A stretch of 64,000 nucleotides of DNA from Marasmius tenuissimus (taxonomy: Eukaryota; Basidiomycota; Agaricomycetes; Agaricales; Marasmiaceae). The stretch covers positions 3,534,001 to 3,598,000 of the forward strand of contig JAQOTA010000054.1 in NCBI GenBank assembly GCA_029532415.1. Direction: 5' to 3'. The first letter of the stretch is position 1, and every line of letters begins with the position of its first letter. A program made the translations under genes and the position numbers. This document shows, piece after piece, positions 6,209 through 30,159 of this stretch. Below the pieces are notes generated by a model, which saw nothing but the letters and a program-made list of their open reading frames with translations, searched no databases and was not told the origin of the DNA.

Positions 6209-9200
6209 ATGCTTTTGCTGCACGAAAGTGGGTTGAAGGATGTGGGTGCTTCATTCTGGGACTACCAAGAGCCCGAGACAAAGTGAGATAGTTCCTTGTT
6301 GCATTCATGACATCGTTATTGAGTTCTGTAGGTCCTGGTCGAACACGGGCGGCATCTTCGATGATTCTAGAGAGCTTCTCGTACACCTGAAAAGACACGG
6401 ACGCGAAGCAGGGAAAGCTATGACTTCGCTTTGCTCAAAAACGGCACCTTCAGTTATGGATAAGATTCAACTTGTGCGTTTATAGCAAATCGAGACGGAT
6501 GGAAGAAGGTTCTGAACAGATTACCATAGCACCTGGATAGCAAGACAAGCAGCGCGGACACAGTCCTTCGTAGGACTTGCATTCACTGTCTCTTACATCT
6601 GAACAAATACCACGGATCCCTACCAACTTCGTTTCATCTCTCCAACATCGTCAAGGAAGGCTCTCATCCAGTCGCTGGTGGGGGATATTCTGTGAGTAAC
6701 GATACAGGACGCCTTCATCGTAGTTGTAGTTATCTCGTTATCTCATGCAGCACCCAACAGGACATTTGGAAAGGACGCCTTGGTGAAGCCCAGTCTGTCT
6801 GTCTCAAGGTTTTACGCGTGTTTACTGGGAGCTTCGACGAGAGAAAGTTGATGAAGGTCAGTACGACCTGTGCTACTTTCCAGCCTATGGGTTTTGAGTC
6901 TTTTCGTGATCAGCAATTGGGTAATGAAGTCCTCATTTGGCGCCAACTCCGACATCCCAACATCCACCAATTTCTCGGAGTCACGAACGAGTTGTTCCAG
7001 CCCAGTTACTGCATCTTCTCGCCCTGGATGACGAACGGGGATGTGATGTCCTATTGTCGTGAACGTAACTCCGGTCTTGACATGAAGCTAAGGATGGTAC
7101 GCACTTTACGGATTTAGATCGAGATTCTCGAGGACCTGACAGATTTCTAGATGCAGGAGATGTGCGAAGGCATTCGGTACCTTCATGAACATGATCCCCC
7201 GATAGTACACAGCGACATAAAGGGTGTACGTCAACATGTCTTTCCGACTTTTCTCGGTCTTTCACAGTTCACCTATTATTACTCCAGATAAACATTCTTG
7301 TCTCCGATGATGAACACTGCCGCATTAGTGACTTTGGGCTCTGTACTGTTGAGGAAGACTCTCCACAGGGACGGGTCTCTGCAAGCGCGAGTCAAGCGGC
7401 TATGCGAGGTTCGGTTCCTTGGCTTGCGCCGGAGCTGATGAATCCAAGTTGCGTCGAGGCTCCGAATCGGACGACTCGGGATATCTATGCATTGGGATGT
7501 ACCATGTACGAGGTGAGTAAACGGAGGAATGCGTAATGAGCGATGTACTAATTACCTTATAGCTACTCGCCGGTAATCCCCCCTTTTCGGATAAAAAGAT
7601 GGAGTTTCAGATTATCATGGAGGTTTTGGGTGGTATTCGACCAGCCCGTCCTGTAGAATGCCCAGATGGGCTCTGGACAGTCATCGAGAAATGTTGGCAA
7701 GAACAGTCCGGATCGCGACTGACCGCTTCGGAAGTGGCAATTCACTTGGTAGACATGACAACGCCAGCCTCAGCCAAAGGCACTCTCGTCACCACTTTTG
7801 TGGACGCCGAAGCCCTACCTACAGCCTCGAAAACTCACCGTTTCGGGTTAATCAAAACGAAAGAAACGAAAGAGAAACGCCTTCATGCTCGGATTTTCCC
7901 CTCAGACTCTGATAAAACACATGTTGAAGTTAGTAGTCGGATGTCGGAGAGATCACACCGGCAACGCCCAGAAATACTGTCAGCCGATTCTCGCCCGGCG
8001 AAGAGGAACTTGGGCGAGGTTGATTCCCCTATCGAAAACGATACTCCGGTAAAGCGCCAACGTCGTACCTGTTCTCTACAAGGCGACGACGAGTCTCCGT
8101 CACAGCAAGAGGTTTCAGCTCAGTCCAAGAATCAAACACAACACCAAGTATTACAACACTTCTTTCAACCATTACTTTCAAGGAAAGATGCCACAGGTCA
8201 TGGAGGAAAGGATCGGACAATTGAACAGGGGGAACACAGTAGCCGTGATCAGGTATGTGGTGGTCTCGATCGAGCTCTGCGCGTGGTCTCATCCTTGACA
8301 GAGCATGGATCTTGACCGGTCTCTTCGTCACGATGGAGATCCAGAATCAGACCAAGAAGCGAAGAAAAATATCACGGCCTACGACGAGGACCCATTGGCA
8401 TCTACCCTGATCCAGCCCACTCCTGCGGTCGAAGCAGTTTCGGGCGAGGAAAAGGCAGAGTTAGATAGAGAGGCGGCACACGCTGGTCCCTTCTCCACTT
8501 CCCAGGCGCCCCTTGTCCCCTTACCCTCTACTTCCCGGAGTTCTTCCTTCCCTGTTAACCGTGGTGCCTTCCTCCCCGCCGACTCCCTTCATCTCTGCCA
8601 CCCATTGTCGGTTCAATTTGTACCACCTCGACAATCCGAAGAATACCAGGACAATACCTTCCAGCTAGATTCTGTAGAACTTCCCCCAATTCTTGCAAAT
8701 CCTTCCTCGAACGGGGAGCCGCCCGGCCACCATGAGGTGGATGTCCTCTCTGCAGACAGCCAAGGTTCTTCGAGCTCACTGCCGAGTCTTTCGACCCACC
8801 TCGGCGTGTCGAGTTTAGACTTCCGTCCCCCGCGAAAGAGAGGCAAGCTCGCCAAGGATACGACGGAACTTTTGAAAACATGGCTCCAACGCCATTCTGA
8901 TCATCCGTATCCGAGTGAAGAAGAAAAGGTCCACCTATGTAGGGCTACGGGGCTGTCCACAAGTCAGGTATCGAACTGGATGATCAACGTGAGTTCTTTA
9001 ATCCCTCTTGTTGTTGACTGCCTGAGCCCACCTCTCACCGTTGCTAGGCCAGACGCAGGATGCTTGCTCCACGAGAATGGGCTGGCGACTATCCCGCCAC
9101 CAATCGAGGGTCATTCCCTGAGGGTGGGCTCTCGAGTCCTGCTACCCCATCTATGCTTACCAGTACATCCAGCATCTCTCAGCCTGTCGCTACAGCGTCT

Positions 9201-11608
9201 TATAACGAACAGAGAATCTTCGGTCCTGATAATATCACCCCAACACCGCGAGCAGCGATCAACTCTGAGAATAGCAACTCCGACGACCTTTTTGGAGGGT
9301 CCCACACCTTTCAGCCACCCAACATTGTGGATACACTTAGCACGACGAATTCTACATCCTTGACTCCGCCCTACTATTCGGCGCCTCCTTTCACTTCCAC
9401 CTTCACCTCCTCCCAAATCTCAAACACCGTGGAATTCTGTAACTCTCCTGAAGCTCGGGCTGAAGGCTCCCCCTATAATCAATGGCTCGCCGCGGAGGAA
9501 GAAAAGGCCTATGGACCTCACGGCGCGGCAGTGTTTGGTCAAAGTTTTCAACAACAGGAGCAATGCTCAATCAGTCTATATCCGCTCGACTCAACCCAAA
9601 ACACCACTACGACAATACCTTTCTCGCATTCCTTAAGCGACAGAATGGATTCCAGCGATGGTGACATAGCTGGACAGGTGCGTACACTGTTTTGCATCTG
9701 CCTCGTGGACCGGATTAATCGAGCATGCCCCCTTACAGGCTGCTGGTCAGAGCCTTGAAGTTTTGCGACAGCAGCAGCACGCCTTGTATGAACAGAGTTC
9801 GCGTCCACCTACGGCATCACCATTCAATGTATTCGACGATCTTAACTCCTCGCAAACCAATGTTAGCAGCCCTTCGTGCGGCTTGGACGACACACCTGCA
9901 TTGAAAGGAGTCGGCGTGAACGCAAGCAGTGGTCCTCTTGAAAAGGAAGAATCAAGTACCAGGGTCGCTCAGGCTTCCGTACCTGTAACGAGGGACGAAG
10001 ATATAGCGGACTTCTTAACCGGGGACAGTGAGGATTCCGGGCGTTCATCGACCCAATCATTGTCCCGACGGAGACTCGTTTTCACGGCACCTTCTGCTTC
10101 GGAGACGTTTGTAATGCCTATAGAATGGTATGATTATGGGTATGAGGAAGAGCAAGGTCAGACGGACGGGCCGGTAGGAGAAGGTCCATCGAAACCAGAC
10201 ACGGAGGAACCCAGCGTCCGTCTCCTCAAGGAAACCGAACCGATATCTTTTGCCAGCGCCCCTCCTGTCAGTTATGAAGATCATGACAGCGAGGATTTGG
10301 ACGAAGAGTCCCTGCCCAGCCCTCCTCCTGTCGCCGCCATCCAACATGTTCAATTTGACGATGGAGTGGGCATGTACAAGGAACTTAAGCAAGCAGACAA
10401 GCGAGCTACTTCTACTGTTACTGGCGCTCGGTCGCCTCCACAGACCCCTTACCGCGAAGGTTACGCCACCATAGCAGCCCCACGATACAAACATCCCCAC
10501 CATAACGTTTTTTCCGTTTGTTCCCCGAGAGACGACCTGTCCCCCAACCCCGAGATGGAAGACATCTTTGAAGGCACTCAAGGTTCTTTCGGCTCCGAGC
10601 CAAGTTCTTCCACCCAATCTCTCGACGTGTTGAGATCAGACTCTCGGGCTGCTGAGATTCAATCAAAGAGAGCCATGCTCGCCACGTTGAGGAAAGCACG
10701 TCTTGAACGTAAACGGAGGCACTTCGGCCCGCGTCCAATTGAAGATATGATGTCAATGATATCCGAATCGATATCCCCCGCGTCAGAGAAAGAGCAATTG
10801 ATTATCGTAAGCCCGTCATCTACTCGTTAAGAGCGTTTGCAGTACTCAGTTCTCAGTTCTCATTGCTGATAGACCAACCACGGAGGGCCCACGCACAAAA
10901 CTGTGCACACTGGCAACGATGAGATCGCCAGCTCAATTCTGATGCATACAAACAGCGCTTCTCCCTCTACCTCTTCCATCTCCACCGATACACCCCGTGT
11001 ACCTCCTGATAATGACTCCCAGGACAATTTGACGCCGCTGGAAGGCGAAGCCACGGCAAAGGAACTGATCGAGTACCAACCCCGACGAAACATACCCCTT
11101 GTTGGCGGGCCATGGGAGCGCAAGCTTAGACCATGGTCGCAAGCCCTCAGAAGTGTAGCCGATTTTGGGGACTATGAACGGGACAGTGAGGATTCAGGCG
11201 ATCAGAACCGTAAACCGTAAGTCCGAAATCTGATTACTTCAATCGAGGACTTGTTTGTTGATATGGATTCACAGAGGTGCTTGCCTGCAGTGCAAGGAGC
11301 TCCAGATACGATGCGAGTATCCCACGAACGCACCCCCATGTAAATGGTGCACGAAAGAGGGTCTTCAGTGTCTACGTCACTCGGCGCAACTTATGTGTAT
11401 GGGTGACTTGCCCGCCCTCAGCGCCTCGTCGAGCCCCGTCGAACAAAGTTTAGACGGAAGCCCCGGTCCACGGATTGTCGATACAGCATCTGAAGCTGTA
11501 GAAGGTATGTGGGAGGTGGCCTCCTTGCAAGAGGCCTGGAAAAGCTTCCGGGCGAGGGTGGGAACCTCTGAGCTTGTTGGTGTCCCGTCAACTCTCTTGG
11601 TCGATTAG
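6209..11608 (+). CDS. K1: TKL-like kinase fused to TALE homeodomain and Zn2Cys6
   Basis: Predicted multi-exon gene of roughly 1,550 codons, with about 13 exons and introns of 49-65 bp. Order: N-terminal module (start MLLLHES chosen by alignment with K2 and K3); kinase domain from a Gly-rich loop (PVAGGGYS) through the Lys strand VCLKVLRVF, the helix-C Glu in LGNEVLIW, catalytic loop HSDIKG-INILV, DFG in ISDFGLC, and LAPELM; a linker with KR and KRQRR clusters bracketing GEVDSPIE, resembling a bipartite nuclear signal; a homeodomain at 8833-9059; about 650 residues of low-complexity linker; a Zn2Cys6 cluster at 11282-11371; and the C-terminal motif AWKSFR / RVGTSELVGVPS. The kinase-to-homeodomain junction is a phase-0 intron at 8253-8301, at the same position as introns in K2 and K3. 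All active-site residues are present, so catalysis is expected. A signal-regulated DNA-binding kinase is an inference. If transcripts show otherwise, it could be two or three genes. Confidence 0.75.
8833..9059 (+). other. TALE-type homeodomain in K1
   Basis: The segment begins RKRGKLAKDTTELLKTWLQR and continues through HPYPSEEEK, the three-residue-extended loop signature of TALE/KN homeodomains. The recognition helix is completed across an intron (8989-9047): SNWMIN is joined to ARRR, giving the W-x2-N-x-R motif needed for DNA contact. The join across the splice is strong evidence that both exons belong to one protein. Confidence 0.9.
11282..11371 (+). other. Zn2Cys6 binuclear cluster in K1
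   Basis: Six cysteines spaced C-x2-C-x6-C-x8-C-x2-C-x6-C, the Gal4-type fungal binuclear zinc cluster. A basic GACLQCKELQIRC segment is followed by PCKWCTKEGLQC. It starts one codon after an exon boundary (acceptor at 11274), the same placement as in K2. Confidence 0.9.
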
Positions 11609-12029: not shown

Positions 12030-15000
12030 ATGCTCTTGCTGCGGGATAACAGGGCGAACTCGGATTTCGACGATGGAGTATGGGAGCGACAAGAGACCAA
12101 GTGAGTCTACTCTTGTATTTGTTGAGATTCCAATTCTCAGGTCGTGGTTAACCACCGAGAATACTTTTGACAGCCTGGACGAGTTCTGCAGACACCTCAA
12201 GAGTAATGGCCACGAAGCAAGGAAAGCTATGAACTCCGTTTCTCCGCAAACTGCACCTTCGCTCATGGATACGATCCAATTCGTGCGTTCCGCCAATCTC
12301 GCTAATAGCACGTCGAACTCAGCAAATTTTCATAGCATCTGGATAGCGCAGGAAGCCATCAAGACCATAACCTCCGCAGAGTTTGCATTCAGTGTCTTCT
12401 TCATCTGAACAAGTACCACGGCTCCCTACCCCCCTCGATCTATCTTTCGAATGTTATCAAGGAGGGTTCGCACCCCGTCGCCGGTGGCGGTTTCTCTGTA
12501 AGACACATCATATGAAAGCCGCAGAACTGCAGTTTTCTCACTCAGTTTCTTCGTTACAGGATATCTGGAAAGGCCGTCTCGAAAATCATGAACCAGTCTG
12601 TCTCAAGGTTTTGCGCGTCTACACTGAGAGCTTTGACAAGAAAAAGTTATTGAAGGTACATCTGGCGTTTATCCATTGTCAACCTCCTGAACTCGCTCAG
12701 ACTTACGATGATACGCATCCAGCAACTGGGCAACGAAGTTCTCATTTGGCGCCAACTTCAACATTCAAACATCCAACGATTTCTTGGTATCGCGACCGAG
12801 TTATTTCAACCCAGTTACTGCATCATCTCGCCATGGATGGCGAACGGGAACATCATGGCTTACTGTCGGCGACACAATTCGAGTTTCGATGTCAAGATTA
12901 TGATGGTACGAGCTATCAATTTCAATCAGAATTGCGGAGGCTTACAGTCGTTTATGTAGATCAAGGAAATATGTGAAGGCGTTCGGTATCTCCATGAGCA
13001 CAATCCCCCGATAGTACACAGTGACATTAAAGGCGTTCGTCACCCTTTCATCTCGATCTCTCTGAGCCCCGCTGATTCGTCTATAATCACAGATGAACGT
13101 TCTAGTCTGTGACGAGGGCCATTGCCGGATTAGCGACTTCGGGCTCTGTACCATTGAAGATGACTCGCCAACAGGTCGTGTCAGTGAAAGCACGAGCCAG
13201 GCGGCGATGCGAGGTTCGGTTCCCTGGCTTGCGCCAGAGTTGATGAACCCTGGTTGCGTCGAATCGCCAAATCGAACGACACGGGACATTTATGCGCTGG
13301 GGTGCACCATGTATGAGGTACATTGATACCTTACCTTGTGTTTTTTCTACATTAGATTCACCATTTCATAGATATTCGCAGGGAATCCACCATTCTCTGA
13401 CAGGAAGATGGATCTTCAGATAATTCTTGCAGTCCTGAACGGCATGCGACCATCACGACCGGCGGAATGCACTGATCAGCTCTGGATGATCATCGAGAGA
13501 TGTTGGAGCGAAGAGTCTGGATCGCGACTTATCGCATCCCAAGTTGTTGCCCTTTTGGTCGAACCTGCTCTTACAGCCCTCTCCGCCCCCAGCAATATCT
13601 CTGTCGTTCACACGAAGGGAGTCGAGCTTGTAGGTAGAGTGGAAGGGATCAAGTCTCACCCTGAAGACTCGCCATCCCGAGCCAAGCCTCTCCTCCCAAC
13701 GAGCTCTATTCCTCGTAGGCAAGACGAAGTGTCTCCAGTCTGCAGCTCGAGGAAGAGGGGTATAGGCGAAGTTGACTCTCCCATCGAATCCGAGCCTCTA
13801 GCCAAGCGGCGTCTCCCTTCCCCGTTGGGAGGTAATGATGAGCATTGGGACGTCACTATCAGAGATGAAGCAACGGAGCAGGAAGGGGATGGTGGGTATA
13901 ATTGGCAGGTAAGCTGCGGTTACACTTGAGATTCTGTCTATAATCGCTGAACTTTTGTCAGGCCTACCCGGACTCAAAATGGTCAGTATTCAGAGAACTT
14001 CTTTCCGTCCCATCCCGCCGTACCTTTCTCGCATTTCCGCTCCGCCGTCTCAGCTACTGATATCTACCTTCTTGTATTGCCTTTCAGGCAATGGAGTGAT
14101 TACGATCTGCCGACTCTTCAAGACAGCCTAAAGTGCTCGAACAAGCAGCCTCGTCCGGACAGCGAGTGTGATGATGTTGTGGATAATCCTACTGAAAGCG
14201 ACGAGGGTGAGGACAGGGACGGCAAACAGGGCAAGACGTGAGTGACAACCGCGTACTTTTTTTCTCGTCTTCCTTTACTCAACCCAGTTCTTCTTGAGTG
14301 GTGCTTGTTCACGTTGTAAACACCTCAAGGTACAATGCGTGTTCAAGACCGACACAGTTCCATGTGAGCGGTGTTTGAATGGTGACCATAAATGCAGGAT
14401 ACCTGAAAGAGTGGCGCCGTCGTGAGCTCAATCCCACAACTGGTTATATTCTCCAGCTCACGTCGTGACATAGGAAACGCGAACGTCTCCTTCGTGCATC
14501 CTGGCCAGACGAATGCAATGAATACGATCAACCTGAAAATCAGTACCAAGGCGACGAATCACCGCCATTCGCACCCGAACCAAAGCAGGACGGGATGTGA
14601 GTGCCATCAGTATTGCATCAAATTACTTTGCACTTAATATTGGCACCAGTGATTTTTACTCGTCACATTCGAAGGGAGGAACGCAGGAGGGCGATGATCT
14701 GCTTGACCTGCTCGGTTTACGCTCAGTAGTATCCATGACCAGCATATTCAACGGCACGATCGATACAACGGACACGAGGGGCTCAGAAGAGCAGCCTCGG
14801 CCGCACGGCCAGTTTGACGATGCTGCGGGCGATGTCGCTGAAAGCAGCAACCGTGACCATGAGGAAAACCAAAAGGGCAAGAGGCGAGTAACAATTGCTT
14901 CCGCTGTCTTCCTCCTTTGTTGACTCCGACATCTCCAGTGGTGCCTGCCAACGCTGCAAAGCCCTCAAGGTTCGATGCGAATTCTGGACCGACACGGATC

Positions 15001-15874
15001 CCCGGTGTAAGCGGTGTTTGAATGGTGGTCATGAATGCTTTATACCCGCAAGAAAGAAGCGAATAACCCCACCGTGAGTTTAGTTCTCGACCTGGTCAAT
15101 TATACTCTCTAGCTTACGTTCGGCCATAGGAAACGCGAACACCTTCTCGCTGAAATCCAAAAACGGGCAGAAACGATTGAGAAGCTCATGGCCCAATTGG
15201 CTGAAGAGGAGAAGTCCGAGCAGAATCTCCCCTGGCCCAGTTCATCTACCTCCGGTGACGTCTTCGGGCCATCTTCCTCCAATCTTCCGCCTTCCTCAGG
15301 CTCACCCCTCGACGAGCCCCCGAACGAAATGAGTGGGGAGGAAAACAGGGTGGTTGAGGATTGGATTGTTAAGGCGCGAGAGTCATGGACCGAGTTCGGT
15401 GGCGTCATGGGCGTTGGTGGGGGCACGCCCAAGAGGCATATCGGTGAAGGGGGCTTGGCAGACTCTTCTAGCGAAGATGAGGATTTTTCCGATGATGATG
15501 ACGACACCGATGGCTATGACATTGAGATAGTCGACGTCGACTTCGACGGGTCCTCCGCCTTCGATTCTGTGAGGCAGAAGTCTCGAGTAGGCAGCCGACG
15601 TGGTTCTACGTCGAGCACCACCAGTCTTCCTCAGCCGAGCAGATACAGTGCTGGAGCTGAGTTCCCTGCGATACCCGACGAGGCTGCGCCTTTTGGATTG
15701 ATGGCCGAGATGAGTTTGAGGCCGGGGCGCAATAAGGTCACACATTCTTTTGGAAGTGACTCCACGCAGGATGATATATGGGATGACATTTCCGTCCAAG
15801 ATGCCTGGAAAAGTTTTCGGGGGAGGGTTGGGACTTCAGAACTCGTTGGTGTTCCTTCCGCCCTCCGAGTCTGA
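12030..15874 (+). CDS. K2: TKL-like kinase with two Zn2Cys6 clusters and coiled coil
   Basis: Paralogue of K1 with the same N-terminal module (start MLLLRDN), the same kinase exons and intron positions, and intact catalytic elements: VCLKVLRVY, LGNEVLIW, HSDIKG, ISDFGLC, LAPELM. The linker holds SSRKRG, GEVDSPIE and KRRL, a bipartite nuclear-signal-like segment. The tail then has two Zn2Cys6 clusters (14306-14395 and 14946-15039), each followed by a spliced KRER/KREH segment. After the second comes a heptad-like helix (LLAEIQKRAETIEKLMAQL) suited to dimerisation, then an acidic Ser/Asp-rich region, and the C-terminal motif AWKSFR / RVGTSELVGVPS. The two cluster-plus-flank units are clearly an internal exon duplication. 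The intron before the second cluster starts with GC instead of GT. K2 is therefore predicted to be an active kinase able to bind DNA; its substrates are unknown. Confidence 0.75.
14306..14395 (+). other. First Zn2Cys6 cluster in K2
   Basis: Cysteine spacing C-x2-C-x6-C-x8-C-x2-C-x6-C (GACSRCKHLKVQC, then PCERCLNGDHKC). It is read after an intron whose acceptor ends TTCTTGAG at 14298. Confidence 0.88.
14884..14938 (+). other. GC-AG intron in K2
   Basis: The donor reads AAGAG/GCGAGTAAC and the acceptor CTCCAG. The paralogous intron before the first zinc cluster has AAGAC/GTGAGTGAC. The equivalent position and matching flanks show that a GT donor changed to GC after the duplication; removal of these 55 bp joins the frame exactly to GACQRCK. 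Confidence 0.8.
14946..15039 (+). other. Second Zn2Cys6 cluster in K2
   Basis: Spacing C-x2-C-x6-C-x9-C-x2-C-x6-C (GACQRCKALKVRC, then RCKRCLNGGHEC), nearly the same as the first cluster. It is followed across an intron by KREHLLAEIQ, the start of a dimerisation-type helix. Confidence 0.88.
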
Positions 15875-16288
15875 GGGGGAGAGGTGGGCAGCCCCTTCAT
15901 CTCGCTCGGACAGAACCCTAGGCCTTGGCTTTGTCGCAGCAGTCATGGGCCTGTCTACACCGGCTCTGTTCAGAGTATCTCAGAGCATCTGTGAATATAA
16001 ATCTGGAAATTCTCATGTACTTCTCGCCTTCATAGCATTCATTGGTGTATGGCTTGTCTTTACAGTCCAAGCGCGCTTAATACTCGATTATCGTACCCAG
16101 GTCACGAGAGCCTCCGCATGTTGCATGGAGCACTCTTGGTCCGGGAGAACAGGTAGACTAAGACGCGTCCTGAATCGACCGTGCCATGCCGTAACCTGCT
16201 CACCTGATCAAGCGAATATTGAGACTCAGACACCTTACCTAGACAATGAAGTGAACCCCGCTTCTTTTTAACTACCACCACTAGTACT
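15875..16288. other. K2-L1 intergenic region
   Basis: 3' flank of K2 and former promoter of L1. No gene recognised. Confidence 0.5.
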
Positions 16289-17291
16289 GGCACTTCAAGG
16301 GATCACCCAAATCGTCGAGGTCGTGGCCATCATCCGAACCGGAATCGACGAGGAGCACAATTAAGAGGAGTTCGAGGGGGTCGTGGTCGTGGTGGTAACA
16401 CTGGTCGCGGTGGTCGCGGTACCCGGAGAGGAGGACAGCCAAACTTCGTTCCCTACGTTCAGCCTATGTTCAGCCATCATTTCCGTCAGATGCCACTCTC
16501 AATCTGTACCACACAAACGACCCAGAGATCAACACAAAGTTCAATCAGCCTGGAATCAAGCGTGTCAAGTTTGGTGTAGATTTCAACGTCAGAGAGTGGT
16601 ACCGGTAGCGTTTTCTCAGCTCAGAACACCGGAAACTGAATAAGCGGCAGCTCGCATCCTCAAGCTGTGTCTTCCGTCCCCGGCCTCATGAACACACTTC
16701 AAGTAATATCCCTCGGAGACTCTGACACGGGCAACGGCTGGCTTCTCACCGACACAGGCATCCAATCTTTCCTCTCGAATGCCATCAGCGCCTTGTCTCT
16801 CTCACGCTCGATGTATGTACAAAACTCACAAACGAAGCACTCACACATGCACTAGAATCATGTCCTCGTCTCGAATATTTCCGGATCACTGGCAACGATA
16901 AAGTGAAAGGGAAAATCGACGACAGCGTGGTTCAGATTTTGAAAGAGAGGGAGACCCTGGGCAGCAGTTTGAAGGATCTGGTACTCTATGATCAATACAT
17001 CTCCACGTTCAAGGCCGAGTTTGAGGATCTCTCGACCGCGAGAAAGGATTTAACCATTGGTACGAGTAGAACATTAGGGTGCGTTCCAGTATCGCATTGT
17101 TTCGAAGTAATTTGTGTGCTAACCATCATCTATCGCGTCTTAGGGACAGTATAGGAGCCAATATGATAGCAGCAATGACGGGTGGAGCATCGTTAACTGC
17201 ATGGAGAGATGGGAAGGCCGTTCACGAGGAGACCGATATGGGATTCTATGGTCCAGGAGGGTACGAAACGCCGTTCTACGACTTTTATTGA
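16289..17291 (+). pseudogene. L1: broken RGG-box/leucine-rich-repeat gene
   Basis: Aligns over its whole length with L2 and L3, but is disrupted. The position of the L2 start ATG reads AGG here. The Arg/Gly-rich segment is intact (for example GGRGRGGNTGRGGRG). An 11-bp tandem duplication at about 16458-16479 (GTTCAGCCTAT followed by GTTCAGCCATC) shifts the frame after PYVQP. A second shift lies near 16785-16835, in the leucine-rich segment that reads SLSLDSCTKL in L2. Downstream pieces (KGKIDDSVVQILKERETLG, then NMIAAMTGGASLTAW and the final GPGGY segment) remain recognisable. The C-terminal exon still ends in a stop at the same place as L2. Call: pseudogene, with good confidence because two independent lesions and the start loss coincide. 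Confidence 0.8.
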
Positions 17292-18132: not shown

Positions 18133-18930
18133 ATGTGTGTGTTACGGGACAATGGGACCAAGCACTCCGATGGTGATGGGTTTTGGAACGATGAAGGTCA
18201 GGGGACGAGGTGAGCCGCTTTTTTTGGTGCTCTCGAGATTAAAGGAGATCGAGATTCGCAGGTCACCCACCGAGCATGTATCCACCGACTTGGACGAGTT
18301 CATCATTCATCTCAAAAGGCACGGGCAAGAAGTTGGGAAAGCCATAGACTCCGTTTCTCCACGAACAGCGCCATCAGTCATGGAGACTATTCAACTCGTG
18401 CGTTCTCAACAGTCTTTCGCGAATGGTAGAAACTTAACATGTACTCAGCACCTGGACAGACAAAGCAGCCAAGAAGACACCACCCTCCGCAGGGCTTGCA
18501 TTCAGTGCCTTCTTCATCTGAACAAATACCACGGTTCCCTACCACTCTCATTCTTTCTCCCAAATATCGTGAAGGATGGGACCCATCCAGTCGCTGGCGG
18601 CGGGTTTGCTGTAAGGCACAGCATCATAAGTTGCACCACTACAATCGTCTCACGCAATTTCCCTTAGGATATCTGGAAAGGACGTCTCGAGAGTGGCCAC
18701 TTGGTCTGTCTTAAGGTTCTACGCGTTCACACTGGGAACTTCAACAAAAGAAACTTGATGAAGGTGCGTTCGGCGCCTAGCCTATGGTGGTATAACATCT
18801 ACTGAATAGTTACTTTCAGCAACTGGGTAATGAGGTCCTCATATGGCGCCAACTTCGCCACCCAAATGTTCATCCATTTTTGGGGGTCACAAACGAATTG
18901 TTCCAGCCGAGTTATTGCATTGTCTCACCT

Positions 18931-18933
18931 TAG
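18931..18933 (+). other. TAG in place of conserved Trp codon in K3
   Basis: The motif reads IVSP-stop-MPNGDVM in K3 but SPWM in K1, K2, K4 and K5. One base (G to A) separates TAG from TGG. It is located in the hinge region of the kinase domain. Confidence 0.9.
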
Positions 18934-20250
18934 ATGCCCAACGGTGACGTGATGTCTTATTCTCGTGAACGTAACTCGAGTTTTGAAGTCAAGATTACGA
19001 TGGTACGGATGGCTTATTGATTCAGGAAGAGCTTCACGACTAACTGGCAGACTTGCAGATGCGAGAATTGTGCGAAGGTTTACGCTATCTCCATGAACAC
19101 AATCCTCCGATAGTCCATAGCGATATCAAAAGCGTACGTCGACCGCCCGCTTTGAGTTTTTCTCCCCATTCATAAGCTACCTCCTCAGATGAACATTCTC
19201 GTCTCTGAAGAAGGCCGCTGTCACATCACCGACTTTGGACTCTGCGCCCTCGAAGATGACTCGCTAGAGGGGCATGTCAGTGAAACCACGAGTCAGGCGA
19301 TTATGCGAGGTTCGGTTCCCTGGCTTGCACCGGAGCTGATGAACCCAGGATGCGTCGAGACTCCAAAACAAACGACAAGGGATATTTATGCCCTAGGATG
19401 CACAATGTACGAAGTACGTGAATACAATAGAGTGTATCTGATTTTGGACTAACCACTTCGAAGGTATTCAGCGGCTCTCCACCCTTCGCTGATAGCAAGA
19501 TGGATGTGCAGATTATTCTATCGGTTCTGAAGGGTCTGCGACCGATGCGGCCCGCAGAATGCCCGCATTGGCTTTGGACCACTATCGGCAAATGCTGGAG
19601 CGAGAATCCTGGATCGCGGCCCACGGCCTCCACAATAGCCACTCTTCTGCTTAAGCCCGCTTTCACAACTCATTTGGCAGCCACTGTCCGCGCCATGAAT
19701 GAAGAGGAACCTGGGCAGTTACTTCGCCAGATGAGTCACGACTCTTCCTGCAAGCATGATGAAGGGACGTCGTCAGCCTCTCCCGATACAGAAAAGAGGG
19801 TCCAAAACGATATCGATTCCCCGATCGAATTCGAGACCTTGGCTAAGCGACGACGTGTCTCTTCTGATGACGAGCCCTTACCTCAAGAAACGGCCGCACA
19901 ACCGGCAGAAGAGGCAAGTGATAGACCATTCCAGCAGGAAGGATATGCTGGACATGGTCGGTCCGAGGTATGCTATGTTCGTGCTCCAGGAACTATCTTT
20001 GCAGTTTCTGAAAGCTTCACAGAGCCCAGGCACTTCGAGGGGTCCTCATAGCTCTTGGCCCCTGATTTTCCCCGCTCTGCCTGGACATGACGGTACTACG
20101 AGCCCTCCATCGACGCAACGCCGACCAGTACAGTCGGCTGGGTATTTCAAAGGCCCCGGCGTAGCTCAAGCTTCCAGAAGCACACTTTTGAAGTCTATAT
20201 CTCTTAATGGACCCACAACTCGGGCGAACACCAAAAGAGTCCCCTTAGCC

Positions 20251-20393
20251 TGTACCAACTGTCGAAGGCGTCACATCGTGGTATGTGGCTTGTAAGTTAC
20301 TCCTCACAAAATTCCGAATTAACTCAGCCTTTGAAGTGCAACATGATTGGTGAGCAACCGTGCGATTCTTGTATGAAGAGGGGCCTCGACTGT
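20251..20393 (+). other. Zn2Cys6 cluster in K3, split by an intron
   Basis: CTNCRRRHIV precedes an intron starting at 20281 (GTATGTGG). The remainder reads CNMIGEQPC then DSCMKRGLDC. The basic CTNCRRRH form is that of classical Gal4-like regulators and is not a copy of the K1/K2 cluster, so this tail has a different origin. Confidence 0.8.
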
Positions 20394-20879
20394 AGACTCG
20401 AGACTGAGGCCGATGACGATGGGTCCAAACTCCGCGACTCAACGGCGTCGCCAGAGGAAAGTGCCGCAACTGCGGAGCCAGGGGTTGCGAACATCGTTGC
20501 CTCGCCAAACCCTACCACAATGGGTGAAGAGTATACCGAGCTAAATTCCGCCGATAAAACAATTGACCCAGGAACCTCGATGATTCCGCATCCTCCGATG
20601 TTCCAGCTACCAGCGTGGTCACCCAAGGCTAATGTGCGGGAATTTGAGAGTAAAGGACCTCACTTGACTCCCGAGGACATGCCCGACGCTATGTGGGAGA
20701 ATGTTTCGCTTCGAGTGGCTTGGAAGGCCTTCCGAGCAAGGGTTGGGGCGTCCGAGCTTGACTGTGTCTATTTATTTTCCGGATTGACTGAGCCGTGTCC
20801 CTTCCATTACGCCTTGGCCAATTTTGACGTCGTATATCGGGATGAGCAGGGGAAGGGGTCGCCTTCAAGTTTACGGTAG

Positions 20880-22185
20880 CTTCGCGCCGTCGTGCTGCTA
20901 GGTATCGTCATGCAACCGTAGCGGCTAATGATTAGGTAGATTGGTTCGAACACAATTGTCACATGTATTCCAGGGTCTCAATGCAGTCTCTTGTGTAAAT
21001 TTCCCTCATCGTTCGCGGTCTGAGGTCCACCAAAGGGCTCTGACCAGGCTTCGATTCAGCATCGAGCGTCGTCGTGTATACCAAACAGACACCCCCGAAA
21101 CCGGACTTCTGGTACTGATCTTGGAGTCTCCCCACACTGGCGCACACTCATTGCCGAACCTTTAGGTTTGGCCTCTTACAGGATTGTGCAGGTTTTTCAA
21201 CCCATTTCCCACGCTCCTGATTTGGACGAGCGCGTTCATTTTTATGTACACTCTGAGTCTCCCCCCGTCTGTCGTCTGCCTATAATCCCGATGCCTAACC
21301 CGCCTTCGTCCTTCTATGCCTCTCCCGAAGGCTCTCTGTTGGACCTCACCGTGCCCACAACATTTTCATGCACTGCCGCCAATAGCCGGACCCCCTGCTG
21401 GATTCCAGTATCAGTTTACGGTGCGTAATGCTCGTTTTTTCTGCAACAAGCTCTCCTCTGACTGAAATGCAGTTTTATCTAGGACCGTTTCTTTAAGTCC
21501 CTTCATTTATCTTAGCTTAGAGACTGGACCCCATTCCGAGAACAATGCCATTCATTTTTGTGTGCCTCTTTCGTCTGACTGCCATTCTCGATAAGCTAAA
21601 TAAGTAATATAGTACCATAGTCAGGTGGCGTAAGTGAGCCCGAAGAATATCGTGCTCACTGCTCACTGACGCCTGTAGTTGCAGTGCTGCGACTATAGGC
21701 GTCGGTGACGACTGCTATGCTACTCCGACAGAGTGTGTTCAATGAGGCATGCAATAGAATTATTTCTCAAGTGCGAGCCATCAAATTTTGGCGGGGATTG
21801 GGTGCGGACGCTCAGACGGGGTTTTCTCACAACAGAGGTTCGGCCCGCGCCGCTTGCGGCCATCCCCCCCAGTCATTCAATCTTTACTATGTATTATGTG
21901 GTTCCATTAGTTACACGAGCAGGTTGCGAATGACAATGTCTTCGTGTTGAGGAGTAATCGACCTACGCGCTCCCACGCGCAGACTGGCTCTCTTCAGGGT
22001 ATTTGTGGATTCCGGGGATTCTCAGGCACATATGCCAATGGCAGAGTCCATAATTTAGGTTACTGTAAGCTCACGTGCTGAGTATGACGCGTTCGGTCGC
22101 GTCATGCCATAGCAGCTGTAGCCTGCCATGGCCCACCTAACTGATCTACTCTTCTTTCTCCAACCACACGGATACTGAAACTCCA
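20880..22185. other. K3-L2 intergenic region
   Basis: About 1.3 kb without a supported gene. The first 130 bp share GTCTCAATGCA and TCTCTT with the 3' flank of K4, indicating duplicated downstream sequence. Nothing else is recognised up to the L2 promoter. Confidence 0.5.
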
Positions 22186-23172
22186 ATGGACTACACAAAT
22201 CGTGGGAGCCGTGGCCACAGCTCAAAGCGCAATCGCGGGCGAGGAGCACAATCAAGAGGAGGTCGGGAGGATCGAGGGAGTCGCGGACAACGTGGTCGTG
22301 CCAGTACTAGTCGCGGTGGCCGCGGTAGCCGCACAGGAGGACAGCCAAGTTTCATACCCTATGTTCAGCCATCATTCGCCCCAGAAGCCATCCTCGATCT
22401 GCACCGCACAAACGAATCAGATTTCAACTCGAAGTTCAATCAGCCTGGAATAAAGTGTATCAAGTTTGGAGACTTCGACGTCAAAGAGTAAGTGGCACTA
22501 GTAGCCTTTTCTCAGCCTGGAAAGTGAGTGAGCAAATCGTAGTTCGCATCTTCAAGCCATGTCTTCCGTTCCCGGCCTCATGAACTCGCTTCAAGTGCTC
22601 TTCCTCGGCGACCCTGACACGGGCAGCGGCTGGCTTCTCACCGACATAGCCGTCCAATCTTTCCTCTCCCATGCTACCAATCTTGTTTCTCTATCACTCG
22701 ATTCATGCACAAAACTCACAAACGAAACGCTCATCTATGCACTGGAATCATGTCCTCGTCTTGAATATCTCCGAATCACCGGGCACGACAAACTGAAAGG
22801 GAAAATCGACGAGAGCGTGTTTCAGGTCTTGAAAGAGAGGGAGACCCTAGGCACCAACTTGCAGGAACTGGTGCTCTATGACCAGTATATCTCCACATCC
22901 AAGACCGAGTTCAAGGATTTCTCGACTGCGAGAAAGGATTTGACCATCGGTACGGGTGAAACGTTAGGGTGCGTTTCAGTGTGGCATTCTTCCATAGCAA
23001 TTGCCATTTTGACTATCATCATTTGTGCCTAAGGGATGGCATGGGAGCCAACATGATAGCAGCGCTGACGGGTGGTGCATCTTTGACTACATGGAAAGAT
23101 GGGAAGGTGGTACACGAGAAGACCGATATGGGGTACTATGGTCCAAGAGGGTATGAAGTCGACTTTTATTGA
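22186..23172 (+). CDS. L2: RGG-box/leucine-rich-repeat protein
   Basis: Three exons: 22186-22487, 22543-22968 and 23034-23172. The first encodes MDYTNRGSRGHSSKRNRGRG and further RG/RGG repeats, a typical RNA- or protein-binding disordered segment, then PYVQPSFAPEAILDLH. The second has leucine-rich-repeat-like units (LQVLFLGD, LVSLSLDSC, LEYLRITG, LQELVLYD), suggesting a small solenoid of F-box-LRR type without an F-box. The third ends in Gly-rich YYGPRGYEVDFY. Function not known; the combination suggests a binding adaptor. It is one of three paralogues interleaved with the kinases. The start ATG agrees with L3, whose first exon begins at the equivalent place. Confidence 0.75.
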
Positions 23173-23391
23173 AGGACCTGCGTGATTATTTCTCGAATCT
23201 CTGATTATTGCGACGGATCTGTATATTAGCCTCTGGTATAAGTCCACTCACCTTACAGAAAATCCCGTGTCGTCATAACCGTGACAAACGGTGGGACTCG
23301 AAACCATAATAGGTCGAAATTCGGCCATTGGTGCTCAACGAAAGTCTCCGCTCACCAATAGGGGATAGAGATTAAGAGAGCAAGTGGCCTC

Positions 23392-23613
23392 TTGGAAGGG
23401 AGGGATTGGAAGCACATGAAGCCACGAGAAGGGGTCTCTTATGAATACAGATTCGCTAGAGGCGGGGATTATTTCGGGAGAGATTCCATCGCTGATTCTG
23501 CCGAGTCCGACCGCTCATTCAGTGCTGTGGGAGGCGTTATCTGGGACTATGTTTCCCCCCAAGAGGCACGCAGGATGCTTCGAGCGAGGGTCGGAAATTT
23601 GGCTTGTCAGTAA
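23392..23613 (+). pseudogene. Orphan kinase C-terminal tail
   Basis: The frame ends with IWDYVSPQEARRMLRARVG followed by NLACQ and a stop. This is a decayed copy of the C-terminal motif of K1/K2/K5 (WDD, LQEAW, FR-x-RVG), preceded by a Ser/Asp-rich piece as in K2. No kinase domain lies upstream: the sequence before it is the L2 3' flank. It marks a deleted kinase copy or a recombination junction. Confidence 0.65.
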
Positions 23614-23976: not shown

Positions 23977-26659
23977 ATGGGGGACAGCGGGGCAAAGGCT
24001 TCTGGCGATTCATTCTGGCACGATGAAGGTCAAGGGACGACGTGAGTCGCTTTCACCTCATGTCCCTGAGATGCAAGAAGGCTGAGATCAGCAGGACAAC
24101 CGCTGATCATATCTTCAGAGGCTTCAGTGACTTGGACGAGTTCATCGTACACGTCAGGCAATATGGGCAAGACATCGGAAAAGCCATGAGCTCTGTTTCT
24201 TCACAAATAGCACCGTTAGTTATGGATGCCATTCAGCTCGTACGTCCCACAAATTCCCTTCAGATAGCAGTAGCATGAACTCAACGTCGAGCATGCACAC
24301 AGCATCTGGACAGGCAAAGCATCCATGTAGACCGTGCCCTTCGTAGGACTTGGATCAAGTGCCTCCTTCACCTGAACAAATATCATGGATCCCTACCACC
24401 CTCTATACATCTTTCAAACATTGTCAAGGAAGGATCACATCCAGTCGCTGGCGGCGGGTTTGCGGTGAGGGACAGTACCACGAATTAGAGAGCTACAGAG
24501 AGCTACAATTATCTCACGCGCAGTTTCTCTTAGGACATCTGGAAAGGGCGTATCGCGAATGACAATCTGGTCTGCTTGAAGGTTTTGCGCATCTACACCG
24601 GGAGCTTCGACGAGAAAAAGCTGATGACGGTGCGTCAACAACATACGTTATCGCACAAGGTGCCCTAAAACCCTACTTCCAGCAACTAGGCAACGAGGTT
24701 CTAATTTGGCGTCAACTTCGACATTCACATATCCACCAATTCCTTGGAGTTGTGAATGACCTGTTCCGGCCAAGCTACTGCATCATCTCGCCGTGGATGG
24801 CGAACGGGGACGTGATGTCTTACTGTCAGCAACATAACTCCAGTCTCGATGCGAAAGTCACGTTGGTGCGGTCTGTCGACTTGAACCAGATTTTCCAAAG
24901 TCTGACAGCCGTCTCCGTAGATTCAGGAAATATGTGAAGGCCTACGATACCTCCATGAGCACAGTCCCCCCATAGTACACAGCGATATTAAAGGCGTGCG
25001 TCATCTCTTCATCTCTACCTTCCTGGGCCTTATCTTTCACACTAGGCCAACATCCTTGTGTCAGACGACGGTCACTGCCGAATCAGCGACTTCGGACTAT
25101 GCACCATTGAAGATGACTCGCCAGCTGGACGCGTCAGTGAAAGCACCAGCCAGGCAGCGATGCGAGGCTCAGTACCGTGGCTCGCGCCAGAGCTGATGAA
25201 CCCAGGCTGTGTCGAGACGCCAAATCGAACCACAAGTGATATCTATGCCTTAGGATGCACCATATATGAAGTATGTGGACTCAGTAGAGCGCCCGTTGGT
25301 TTTGAACTGACTGCTCCAAAGTTACTCAGTGGCTACGCGCCCTTTGCTGATAAAAAGATGGAACTGCAGATCGTCCTAGCGGTCCTGGACGGTATGCGAC
25401 CGGCGTCACCGGCGGACTGTCCGAGTTGGCTCTGGAAGATTATCGAGAACTGTTGGAGTGAAGAGGCTGGGTCGCGACTGACTGCCTCTGAAGTGACAAC
25501 TCTTTTGGCCGGGCGGTCCCTCGAATCCTATCTTGCCTCGAAGGAGGTCCCTTCAAACAATGTAGAGAAAATCGAAGATCTGTGTGGAGGCCCAGAAGGG
25601 GCTAGTTCTAGGTCGAAACAGGTGGACCGGAAGTACCAAACTTATGTTCAGAAAATCCCCCTTCTATCGAAACTAATTCGCCGAATGCGAAACGGCCCTT
25701 GCGAGAAAAGTGAGGAAATGTCGCAAGCTCATTCTGATACAAAGAATATTCGACGGCGGCTTCTGACCATGATCCGGGCCAACCGAATTCGCACCGTCCT
25801 CAGTCTCGTCACCATCACCATCACCATCGCTATCCCCCTTCTGTCCCAACCTCGATCCCTCTACTTCAAGGTCGCCCGACTCGTATACGACAGGATAGAG
25901 CAAAACGAGGAGCCCCCAAGTTTTCCCACGGATATGGACAATCTGTCCTCGCGTGCACTCGAGACTATGGGGCACGGGGATGGGTTCCCTCGAGCTTGTT
26001 CAATTGTACGCAATGCAGAAATTGGAGGCATCTGGCTCCATGAGCATTCTGTCTCTACTTCCTCAATTGCACCCAATGCGGACATTGGAGGCATCTGGCT
26101 CCATGATCATTCTGTCTCTACTTCCGTTGCTGGCCTCGTCTTCACCGCCCTGAGTCTCTCCATCGCCTTCCTTTTCTTACCCTTTATTCTCGCTCTCCTC
26201 GCAAAAGTCGGCATCGAGCTATCCTCACGAAAAACACGAAGAGTCATTCGTGGGGCTTCTACTCGCATTGGCGGGGATCAGTCACTTCAACAGGAGAAGA
26301 AGCGACACGCCTTCGTTGAACATGGCCCGCCCCAATCAACGCCCATCCCTGCAGGGGCTAGGAAAAGGTCCTCCTCTGAATCACCAATCAGAAGTCCTTC
26401 GCCGCCACAGCTATCGCCACCGTCATACCCCTCGCTATCGTCCCCTCCCGTTACAATTATGGGGGTAACTGAAGTTCACCTTCCTTCCACGTTGGAGTCT
26501 ATGTGGGTTGACACTGCGCTTCGAGTGGTTTGGCGAGGCTTCCGGGAAAGGGTTGGGCCATCCGACCCTAACTGTGTCTATTCATCCTCTCGATCAACTG
26601 AACCATGTCCTTTCCATTCTGCCTTACTCTCTTCGAAAGGAGTAGGACGAGGGACGTAG
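23977..26659 (+). CDS. K4: TKL-like kinase with two predicted membrane segments
   Basis: Paralogue of K1-K3/K5 with the N-terminal module (start MGDSGAKA by alignment), the Gly loop, VCLKVLRIY, LGNEVLIW, HSDIKG with ANILV, ISDFGLC and LAPELM: an apparently active kinase. The tail differs from its relatives. The DSPIE/KR nuclear-signal-like linker is absent. Instead there is a basic patch (IRRRLLTMIRANRIR), a hydrophobic segment (about 25793-25846, VLSLVTITITIAIPLL), an inter-segment region holding a 21-residue tandem repeat, and a second long hydrophobic segment (26126-26218, GLVFTALSLSIAFLFLPFIL). A basic Ser/Pro-rich region and the C-terminal motif (VWRGFRERVG, then TEPCPFH as in K3) follow. 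A membrane-anchored kinase is inferred. One 54-bp intron (25270-25323) is a multiple of three without a stop, so retention would keep the frame. Confidence 0.72.
26003..26128 (+). repeat. 63-bp tandem duplication inside K4
   Basis: Two in-frame 63-bp units, encoding IVRNAEIGGIWLHEHSVSTS plus one residue and then IAPNADIGGIWLHDHSVSTS plus one. The DNA is almost the same between units. The repeats lie between the two hydrophobic segments. Confidence 0.9.
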
Positions 26660-26694
26660 ATTCGGCGCCGTTGTGCGAGCCGATCCGTCCTGAA

Positions 26695-26840
26695 ACCAAA
26701 GTCATATTCATCCAAGACGGTATTACTATGTGGGACGATGTCGCCCTTCAAGAACCTCGGAAAGCTTTCAGACGATGGAGGAACATCTGGACTTCTTGGT
26801 GCCCATTCCGTTCTATTGATCGGACGATTGGTGAAAATAA
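26695..26840 (+). pseudogene. Second kinase tail remnant after K4
   Basis: The DNA matches the 3' end of K5: ATGTGGGACGATGTCGCCC, CTTCAAGAA, then degraded versions of AWRSFR and the GTSELVG segment with indels, and the GACGATTGGTGAAA end. K4 itself already ended with the other tail type, so the locus carries both tails in series. Confidence 0.65.
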
Positions 26841-27530: not shown

Positions 27531-27606
27531 TACTTAGCTTGCTCGTCATATATGGACTGGTGACAGGTCCAGAGGCAAAGAAGGGCCAAGATTTGCAGAC
27601 GCCTCG

Positions 27607-27921: not shown

Positions 27922-30159
27922 ATGGTTTCATCAATGCGAGACAATAGCGTGTCGGGGGATCTTAGTGATACATGTTGGAACAATGAAGGTCAAGAGGCGA
28001 GGTGAGCCACTCTCACTGTCCTTGAGACCCCAGAAGATCAATCATAGCAGCTCAAATTTTGGCGATATTGTCCGCAATTTGACCAAGTTCATCGCGCACC
28101 TCAGAAGGCATGGGCAAGACGTCCGGAAAGCCATGGGCTTCGTTACCTCGCAAACAGCACCGTCAGTTATGGACACCATTCAAGTCGTGCGTTTCAGACA
28201 GCTCCTTGCGAGAAACGAGAGAACTCAACATGCACACATAGCACCTAGATAATCAGAGCGATCATGAAGACCGCGCCCTCCGTAGGACTTGGATCGAGTG
28301 CCTCCTTCATCTGAATAGATATCACGGATCCCTACCCACCTCCATCTACCTTCCAAACATTGTTAAGGAAGGTTCACACCCGGTTGCTGGTGGCGGGTTT
28401 GCTGTGAGACACAGTACCAGCAACTGTAGAGCGACGATTATCTCATGCAATTGCTTTCAGGAAATCTGGAAAGGGCGTCTCAAGGATGACCAACTGGTCT
28501 GCCTGAAGGTTCTACGCATTTACACCGGAAGCTTCGACGAGAAAAAGTTGATGAAAGTACGTCGACGGATATTGTCGCATGGCCCGTAGTCCTAAAACCA
28601 CATGTCCAGCAACTCGGGAATGAGGTTCTCATTTGGCGTCAACTTCGACATTCAAACATACACCAATTTCTCGGAGTCGCAAGCGAGTTGTTCCAGCCAA
28701 GCTACTGCATAATTTCGCCGTGGATGGCGAACGGGAATTTGATGTCTTACTGTCGGGACCATAACTCAAGTTTTGATACGAAAGTTGCGATGGTACGGCA
28801 CATCGAGTTGAACCAGATTCTTCAAAGCCTGACCGCTATCTATGCAGATACGTGAAATGTGCGAGGGCCTTCGGTACCTCCATGAGCACAACCCCCCGAT
28901 AGTCCACAGCGATATCAAAGGCGTAGGTTTGCCTTTCATCCCGACTCTTTGTCCACAACATTTAAGTTCTCATCGTAGATGAATATTCTTGTTTCCGACG
29001 ACGGCTATTGCCGGATTAGCGACTTCGGGCTCTGTACCATTGAGGATGACTCGCCAGCAGGCCGTGTCAGTGAAAGCACGAGTCAGGCGGCAATGCGAGG
29101 TTCAGTGCCCTGGCTGGCGCCAGAACTGATGAACCTAGACTGTATCGAGGCGCCAAATCGAACGACAAGGGACATCTATGCATTAGGGTGCACCATGTAT
29201 GAGGTACGTCGTCATCGTTGGGCATGTTCCCCGACTCCCCGAGGCCCCCCTGAGCTGAATGTCACATAGCTGCTCTCGGGGACTCCGCCCTTTTCCGATC
29301 AGAAGGCGGATCCACGAATAATTCTGTCAGTCTTAAAGGGTATACGGCCAGTGCAACCAACAGAATGCCCTGACTGGCTTTGGACGGTTATCGAAAAGTG
29401 TTGGAGGGAAGAACCTAGTCTACGGCTGACCGCCTCAGAAGTCGCGGCCTATATAGCCAAGACAGCATCATCTTCCTTCAGCTCGGCGATGAATGTGCAG
29501 GAAGCTGAACAGCTACACAGTGGTACAGAGAAGATGCAGGATGGATCCAATGCTGCACCGTCGTACCACTCCGCCCCAGCCAAAAGGAACATTTGTGAGG
29601 TGGACTCCTTCAACGAACGCGAGACCCCAGTCAAACGACAGCGCCAACTGGATGCTATAGGTGAGCACCCTCATGATGTTGCCGGCTCATAAACAACTTT
29701 TACTAACAGAAATTAACGAAGCGCCTCCTTCGAAGCGTGGTCGTGGTCGGCCTAAGGGCCAAAAAAACAAAAATCCCAAGTCGGGTTCTTCAAACGATCC
29801 GGCTATTGCTGTGGCAGATGGTTCATTGATCTTGACGCCCAAGAGGAAAAGGACACGACCCCCTAAGGTACTACTTTCAACTGGCCCCAGCCCTTTCGAA
29901 ACGTATGTCGTGCTCATAAACTCTCACCACTCGCAAGGAATACAAGGAGCCCACACGGAGAGACCCGCGGGCGCGATCGAGCGTTCAAATTTACGACGCG
30001 ATGACCCCACCTGAATCCAGGATCACCTCTATTCGCGGTATGTGGGACGACATCGCCCTCCAAGAAGCCTGGAGAAGCTTCCGGGTGAGGGTCGGGACCT
30101 CTGAACTTGTCGGTGTCCCATCCACCCTCTTTCCATTGGTCGACGAATTGGTGAAATGA
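27922..30159 (+). CDS. K5: TKL-like kinase with AT-hook tail
   Basis: Shortest array member. Start MVSSMRDN by alignment; N-terminal module; kinase exons with PVAGGGFA, VCLKVLRIY, LGNEVLIW, HSDIKG, ISDFGLC and LAPELM; all splice as in K1-K4. The linker retains a variant of the nuclear-signal-like segment (AKRN, CEVDSFNE, VKRQRQ). After an intron the tail holds an AT-hook (SKRGRGRPKGQKNK, 29733-29775) and a second basic patch (KRKRTRPPK), then after another intron the C-terminal motif (AWRSFR, RVGTSELVGVPS) and a stop. AT-hooks bind the minor groove of AT-rich DNA, so this tail would give low-specificity chromatin binding, unlike the zinc clusters of its relatives. It is predicted active and nuclear; its targets are unknown. 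Confidence 0.75.
29733..29775 (+). other. AT-hook in K5
   Basis: The core RGRP is flanked by basic residues (KRGRGRPKGQK), the canonical AT-hook form. Confidence 0.85.

Follow-up and report, generated by a model that had tools for sequence, protein, structure and literature searches.

Can a kinase family in a eukaryote repeatedly acquire the DNA-binding segments of other genes and carry them as interchangeable parts? Kinases usually act at promoters via separate transcription factors. The question is raised by a 64,000-nt stretch of Marasmius tenuissimus contig JAQOTA010000054.1 (C28:3534001-3598000; hereafter the window), in which five neighbouring genes, K1 to K5, join a kinase to differing C-terminal parts. 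We analyzed these genes together with the surrounding 71-Mb genome. Based on exons that run from kinase into tail, the fusion is real at the DNA level, and shared intron positions suggest that DNA-binding exons, introns included, were likely captured by one kinase family.

A kinase family with differing middle segments

Self-comparison of the window identified five kinase units (6383-7735, 12176-13544, 18181-19630, 24007-25508, and 27967-29409), and the five genes follow a common plan: an N-terminal module, a tyrosine kinase-like (TKL-like) kinase, a differing middle segment (hereafter the tail), and a C-terminal W-x8-W motif (the W-motif). This agrees with an earlier reading made from the letters alone (the sequence-only reading), which had described five genes sharing an N-terminal module, a kinase, and a C-terminal motif; five units and five motifs were recovered. 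Splicing of K1 to K5 was worked out by eye from three-frame translations and then checked in scripts. Each gene forms one spliced open model, with the exception of K3, which contains one in-frame TAG.

The family extends beyond the window, as five further relatives (K6 to K10) bring it to ten genes within 160 kb of C28; the earlier count of five is correct for the window, but the family is larger and the K3 kinase carries a stop codon. A genome search with the K1 motif returned six matches, all on C28, and the three outside the window led to K6, K7, and K8; this search was insensitive, as it missed K3, K4, K9, and K10. A conserved kinase exon had at least 63 matches in the genome (E value of 1e-6 or better), of which 10 fall within C28:3.518-3.678 Mb and show 61-100% identity, and the remaining 53 show 36-50% identity.

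Across K1 to K8, we modelled 76 introns of 40-106 nt, which are GT-AG throughout save one GC-AG intron in K2. Exons 3 to 7 have the same lengths (162, 96, 183, 75, and 225 nt) in all eight models. K9 and K10 were read in part; in K10, one frame runs from the kinase lobe to a weak W-motif, as judged by eye. A DNA-binding-type segment, worn in some cases, is present in eight of the 10 family members.

Kinase and tail in one gene

The fusion is real at the DNA level because single exons in K4 and K6 span both kinase lobe and tail. The K4 exon is given in Table 1; in K6, a 641-nt exon encodes the kinase C-lobe followed by sequence that aligns at 48% identity with residues 51-203 of a Zn2Cys6 factor encoded on contig C27 (E value of 2e-31; score reached by none of 1000 shuffles). 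An exon of K8 likewise joins the kinase lobe to sequence resembling the C27 factor (48% identity, E value of 2e-26, none of 1000 shuffles). In K7 and K8, one intron lies between the exon with kinase and factor-like sequence and the exon with the zinc cluster and W-motif. The proposal that kinase and tail occupy one gene was therefore borne out, within an exon in K4 and K6 and across a single intron in K7 and K8. Separate genes that share a motif through segmental duplication are rejected for K4 and K6, in which kinase lobe and tail lie in one exon, and are unlikely for K7 and K8, as the zinc cluster directly follows the splice acceptor with no in-frame ATG between.

The single-gene model of K1 is the least certain of K1 to K5. 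For this gene only, the homeodomain part could be a separate or nested gene, with the kinase and zinc cluster joined around it or themselves separate genes. An ATG occurs immediately after the acceptor at 8301, only the GTAAGC donor at 10807 lets the model bypass a stop at 10830, and the exon at 10873 is also phase-compatible with the kinase donor at 8252, which allows a long-intron alternative. We consider a split K1 unlikely, however, as every junction in the single-gene model is an ordinary short in-phase intron and genuine fusions in other family copies weigh against it.

In a genome-wide check, three of the 63 kinase matches lay within 10 kb of any of 37 Zn_clus matches, all via the K2 cluster; this list of 37 was insensitive, as the clusters of K1, K3, K6, K7, and K8 were missed.

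The kinase module

The Pfam domain PK_Tyr_Ser-Thr was identified in the seven full models with E values of 4e-37 to 7e-42, and in the part of K3 after its stop with an E value of 4.5e-27. The Lys, HSD..N, DFG, and APE motifs are present in all eight models, counting K3 with its stop. Among the best 60 of 2367 structure-database (PDB) matches, the top matches were EGFR, TYK2, and Lyn, and Eph, TNNI3K, B-Raf, Roco4, and RIPK2 also occurred; we take EGFR, Eph, and Lyn to be tyrosine kinases, and TNNI3K, B-Raf, Roco4, and RIPK2 to be TKL kinases. In K3, an in-frame TAG (18931-18933, forward strand) replaces a conserved tryptophan. Because the K3 frame is otherwise open, the stop suggests recent damage or an assembly error.

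DNA-binding-type and other tails

Pfam analysis supported the middle segments that had been described for K1 (homeodomain plus Zn2Cys6), K2 (two Zn2Cys6), and K3 (another Zn2Cys6). Relative to the Zn_clus cut-off of 21 bits, K1 scored 18.5 bits within the whole protein and 26.0 bits as a fragment, K2, with two clusters, scored 25.1 bits, and K3, scanned from after the stop, scored 34.3 bits; all three thus pass the cut-off, K1 when scored as a fragment. Six of the seven zinc clusters retain all six cysteines. A K2 cluster resembles GAL4 in the structure-database search (E value of 5e-5). At the position of the GAL4 base-contact lysine, for which we assumed the GAL4 numbering and which was aligned to GAL4 for the second K2 cluster and transferred by eye to the others, both K2 clusters, K6, and K8 have Lys, and K3 has His. 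A Pfam scan of K1 to K8 (K3 from after the stop) identified no Fungal_trans or other regulatory part after the cluster.

The zinc tails of K2, K6, and K8 match one transcription-factor family, and those of K1 and K7 probably belong to the same family, judged by intron place; only the K3 zinc tail is of a different type. The GC-AG intron of K2 (14884-14938) lies ahead of its second zinc cluster, and the same-place intron starts with GT before the first K2 cluster and in K6, K7, and K8.

Homeobox_KN was identified in K1 at 68.3 bits (cut-off 24; E value of 5.2e-19). The homeodomain retains WxxN.R, and its WMINARRR aligns with PKNOX1 and Meis2 among the structure-database matches. For K4 and K5, two membrane segments and an AT-hook had been proposed; the two hydrophobic stretches of K4 are present, and a single AT-hook in K5 is visible by eye, but it scores 9.6 bits against a Pfam cut-off of 17.4. 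The GATA-like finger of K9 scores 21.2 bits in context and 24.9 bits as a fragment (cut-off 26.8). Basic K[KR]x[KR] motifs are present in the tails of K1, K2, K3, K5, and K7; the K5 scan covered nearly the whole protein, and the motifs of K2 and K7 lie outside the post-kinase linker.

Origin of the tails

Three tail types have relatives elsewhere in the genome. The coiled coil and linker of K2 align to C27:1864705-1865319 with 60% identity over 204 amino acids (E value of 3.6e-54). This locus looks like an ordinary Zn2Cys6 factor, with a Zn_clus score of 23.6 bits and its own start, and it continues in the direction of a stretch that resembles Fungal_trans (18.2 bits against a cut-off of 23), whereas K2 lacks that C-terminal part. 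The introns immediately flanking the zinc cluster of the C27 factor on both sides also occur in K2, and dN/dS (the ratio of nonsynonymous to synonymous divergence) between the K2 tail and the factor is 0.33. A second relative lies at C27:1.611 Mb.

The K1 homeodomain is 76% identical over 63 amino acids to that of a TALE gene 400 kb away (C28:3.13 Mb), and both have the same intron after WMIN. A segment located after the homeodomain in the TALE gene lies ahead of it in K1 (8302-9071), and the captured pieces are therefore permuted. The hook exon of K5 aligns to an AT-hook gene at C20:585727-585930 (49% identity, E value of 1e-8), in which several hooks are seen by eye; an intron after RPPK occurs at the same place in both. 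This match is the weakest of the three because it involves basic low-complexity sequence.

For each of the three, relative and tail have an intron at a common position; one kinase family therefore probably took up DNA-binding exons together with their introns. At only 49-76% identity, the C27, C28:3.13 Mb, and C20 genes are likely either the sources of the tails or sister genes of those sources, and that the kinase genes were the recipients is our inference. Capture through reverse transcription is rejected, as the captured pieces retain the introns of their relatives. Separate capture of each zinc tail is not supported, given that K2, K6, and K8 match one transcription-factor family. In the genome, no convincing relative was found for the tails of K3 (best 32% identity, E value of 0.003) or K9 (self-match only), or for the membrane-type part of K4, for which only the K3 C-terminus matched.

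The C-terminal motif and a probable tail replacement

By self-comparison, copies of the W-motif in K1 to K5 start at 11504, 15791, 20689, 26499, and 30037, and a sixth copy starts at 26727, after the K4 stop. In an alignment of ten copies, both tryptophans and one glycine are invariant, and eight of the ten retain the RVGxS serine. The sixth copy has 67% identity to the motif of K5, 60% to that of K1, and 48% to K4's own motif, which itself is 72% identical to that of K3. The simplest reading is that the K4 end was replaced, the sixth copy being a likely footprint, or relic, of the event. In the W-motif tree, K3 and K4 are joined (97/99), and the relic is set apart from both. The kinase DNA tree joins K4 and K5 weakly (80/87), the protein tree does not resolve them, and a K3 plus K4 grouping is not rejected (approximately unbiased test, p = 0.122). 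The kinase tree thus neither proves nor excludes that K3 and K4 exchanged tails, and the main evidence for such an exchange is the relic motif.

Repeated replacement of the tail, as the sequence-only reading had suggested, is consistent with the variable middle, the three traced tail types, and the K4 relic; that K2, K6, and K8 share one factor family reduces the number of exchanges it can claim.

Possible functions of the fusions

We tentatively favour a reading in which the tail acts as an address: the copies share one kind of kinase, which the tail would direct to differing DNA sites or, in the case of K4, to a membrane. The middle segment between kinase and W-motif probably stems from DNA-binding exons of other genes. 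The kinase, with its conserved motifs, is predicted to be active; the basic linker may bring it into the nucleus; the better-kept tails would bind the sites of their relatives; and the tethered kinase could then phosphorylate the related factor or chromatin. The W-motif, recognizable in all ten copies, may be a common docking or regulatory part. An address function would account for three features: K2 has the DNA-binding portion of the factor but lacks the regulatory one, a membrane-type tail can occupy the place of a DNA-binding tail, and kinase and W-motif stay constant as the middle changes. Besides the fused genes, the shared exon structure, and the relatives of three tail types, low kinase dN/dS supports this reading (0.07-0.19 over 28 pairs among eight kinases, at dS 0.63-2.27). 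In its broader form, which we regard as possible and advance with some reserve, this is a eukaryotic one-protein signal-to-promoter family, in which one chassis (kinase, fixed N-terminal module, and fixed C-terminal motif) would recurrently capture exons for DNA binding from the transcription-factor and chromatin genes of the genome in which it resides; one kinase would thereby reach many different promoter sets, with the address replaceable.

Several observations weigh against this reading. The K3 kinase is interrupted by its stop, K4 has its hydrophobic stretches and no DNA-binding domain, and in the part of K10 that was read, by eye, no DNA-binding domain was recognized between kinase lobe and W-motif. 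A Tyr replaces the third Cys in the K6 cluster; the clusters of K6 (10.7 bits, fragment), K7 (15.4 bits, fragment), and K8 (14.4 bits) fall below the Zn_clus cut-off; and the base-contact position has Gln in K1 and Glu in K7. The tails of K4, K6, and K8 lack K[KR]x[KR] motifs, which are weak evidence where present, as shuffled tails average 0.05-0.45 motifs. The kinase dN/dS values are rough because dS is near saturation in many pairs. The uniform signal-to-promoter system of the earlier reading has to be narrowed accordingly: K4 is of membrane type, the part of K10 that was read has no recognized DNA-binding domain, and the K6 and K7 clusters are worn.

The chief rival, in our view unlikely, is that the fusions are sensors with integrated decoys, whose captured domains serve as baits resembling nuclear targets of mycoviruses, parasites, or rivals while the kinase reports attack. 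An old tandem cluster with several kinds of bait and one broken copy would fit, as would the worn DNA-binding residues in the K1 and K7 zinc clusters and in K6, and a published precedent exists in wheat, in kinase fusion proteins for which an integrated decoy has been proposed (PMC10260397, accessible part). However, the kinase shows no sign of positive selection (dN/dS of at most 0.19 in pairwise comparison, with no site-wise tests), and the membrane-type tail of K4 is no natural bait. We think it rather improbable that the fusions are instead kinase-gated competitors, which would occupy the sites of a related factor and repress or modulate its targets while lacking its C-terminal regulatory part, with autophosphorylation switching binding off. 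K2 does retain the factor's DNA-binding domain, coiled coil, and linker and ends before its Fungal_trans-like stretch, but the K3 and GATA-like K9 tails lack a convincing relative in the genome to compete with, and clusters with altered contact residues would compete poorly.

Functionless chimeras, produced by chance through tandem duplication beside recombining sequence and now drifting, would account for the in-frame stop of K3, the relic motif behind K4, and the worn K6 and K7 clusters. This explanation seems to us improbable, given low kinase dN/dS at the dS values above, open frames of 575-1569 amino acids in seven of the eight models, and a C-terminal motif preserved behind unrelated tails.

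Feature coordinates and neighbouring sequence

Table 1. Features of the kinase fusion family. Positions are those of the window unless a contig is named.
Feature	Position	Strand	Evidence
K1: kinase, TALE homeodomain, Zn2Cys6, W-motif; 13 exons, 1569 amino acids	6209..11608	+	splice model, Pfam
K1 kinase domain, within exons 3-8	6671..7739	+	splice model, Pfam
K1 basic linker AKRNLGEVDSPIENDTPVKRQRR, resembling a nuclear localization signal; related segments in K2, K3, K5, K7	7998..8066	+	
K1 intron linking kinase exon to homeodomain exon	8253..8301	+	
K1 TALE homeodomain, internal intron 8989-9047	8827..9071	+	Pfam, comparison with C28:3.13 Mb gene
K1 Zn2Cys6	11282..11371	+	Pfam
K1 W-motif	11504..11598	+	
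K2: kinase, two Zn2Cys6, coiled coil, transcription-factor linker, W-motif; 15 exons, 1006 amino acids	12030..15874	+	splice model, Pfam
K2 first Zn2Cys6	14306..14395	+	22.7 bits alone
K2 second Zn2Cys6	14946..15038	+	Pfam
K2 coiled coil and linker, probable origin in a Zn2Cys6 transcription factor	15130..15742	+	
K2 W-motif	15791..15874	+	
K3: kinase with TAG, Zn2Cys6 of another type, W-motif; 10 exons	18133..20879	+	splice model, Pfam
K3 Zn2Cys6, interrupted by intron 20281-20336	20251..20393	+	splice model, Pfam
K3 W-motif	20689..20815	+	
K4: kinase, two membrane-type segments, W-motif; 8 exons, 762 amino acids	23977..26659	+	splice model
K4 single exon of 1338 nt: kinase C-lobe through hydrophobic stretches to W-motif and stop	25322..26659	+	
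K4 predicted membrane segment 1	25787..25852	+	
K4 predicted membrane segment 2	26111..26227	+	
K4 W-motif, K3-like	26499..26625	+	
Decaying second W-motif after K4 stop, K5/K1-like, likely relic of replaced end	26727..26836	+	
K5: kinase, AT-hook tail, W-motif; 10 exons, 575 amino acids	27922..30159	+	splice model, Pfam
K5 AT-hook exon, core 29733-29759	29710..29867	+	comparison with C20:585727-585930
K5 W-motif	30037..30131	+	
K6: Zn2Cys6-type tail; start codon provisional	C28:3648496-3651590	+	
K7: Zn2Cys6-type tail	C28:3662796-3659612	-	
K8: Zn2Cys6-type tail	C28:3666782-3664012	-	
K9: kinase lobe, GATA-like finger, W-motif without RVGTSEL end; outside the window	C28:3515000-3518300		

Three copies of a leucine-rich-repeat-like (LRR-like) gene lie between or beside the kinase genes (16285-17508, 22173-23395, and 30585-31490); the second scores 22.8 bits for LRR_4 (cut-off 27), and an RGG-rich stretch that starts at 30514 directly precedes the third. 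Further duplications, both direct and inverted, form a second set that covers 33542-37777 and 39114-49751 and includes an open frame (33812-34717) with a HELGH-like metallopeptidase sequence.

Comparison with known systems

The cluster offers a natural series of zinc clusters, a TALE homeodomain, an AT-hook, and a GATA-like finger for studying a kinase tethered to DNA, and relatives of three tails persist as separate genes in the same genome, which would make a probable origin of the fusions by exon capture directly readable. Among eukaryotes, a plant protein of the AtWRKY19 type, a nucleotide-binding leucine-rich-repeat receptor (NLR), contains both a WRKY domain and a mitogen-activated protein kinase kinase kinase. 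Kinase and DNA-binding domain are combined as in the present family, but AtWRKY19-type proteins are built on an NLR core and have one architecture, with no series of interchangeable tails. Gal4-type Zn2Cys6 factors, represented by the relative at C27:1.864 Mb, match K2 in their zinc cluster, the positions of introns, the coiled coil, and the linker; in K2, a kinase stands in front and the W-motif replaces the missing regulatory part.

Our literature searches turned up no family of such kinase/DNA-binding fusions. The accessible part of a fungal kinome survey lists 65 domain types beside kinases, with Fungal_trans among them once, and its main text, to the extent available, does not contain the words zinc or DNA-binding (PMC2838846). 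The rarity that the sequence-only reading had attributed to such fusions fits these figures. An apparent expansion of TKL-like kinases, with at least 63 matches here, resembles the TKL-type expansion that the same part of the survey describes in the agaricomycete Laccaria bicolor; in contrast to what is described there, DNA-binding tails recur here in one cluster (PMC2838846).

Wheat kinase fusion proteins (Sr43, Lr9, and Pm4) are similar in that an apparently working kinase is joined to other domains, which have been proposed to act as integrated decoys (PMC10260397, accessible part). They differ in being plant resistance genes; the fused parts named there are domains of unknown function, vWA, or a second kinase, none of them DNA-binding, and the same part of that report mentions no conserved C-terminal motif (PMC10260397). 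The M. tenuissimus family may represent a fungal counterpart of these plant proteins.

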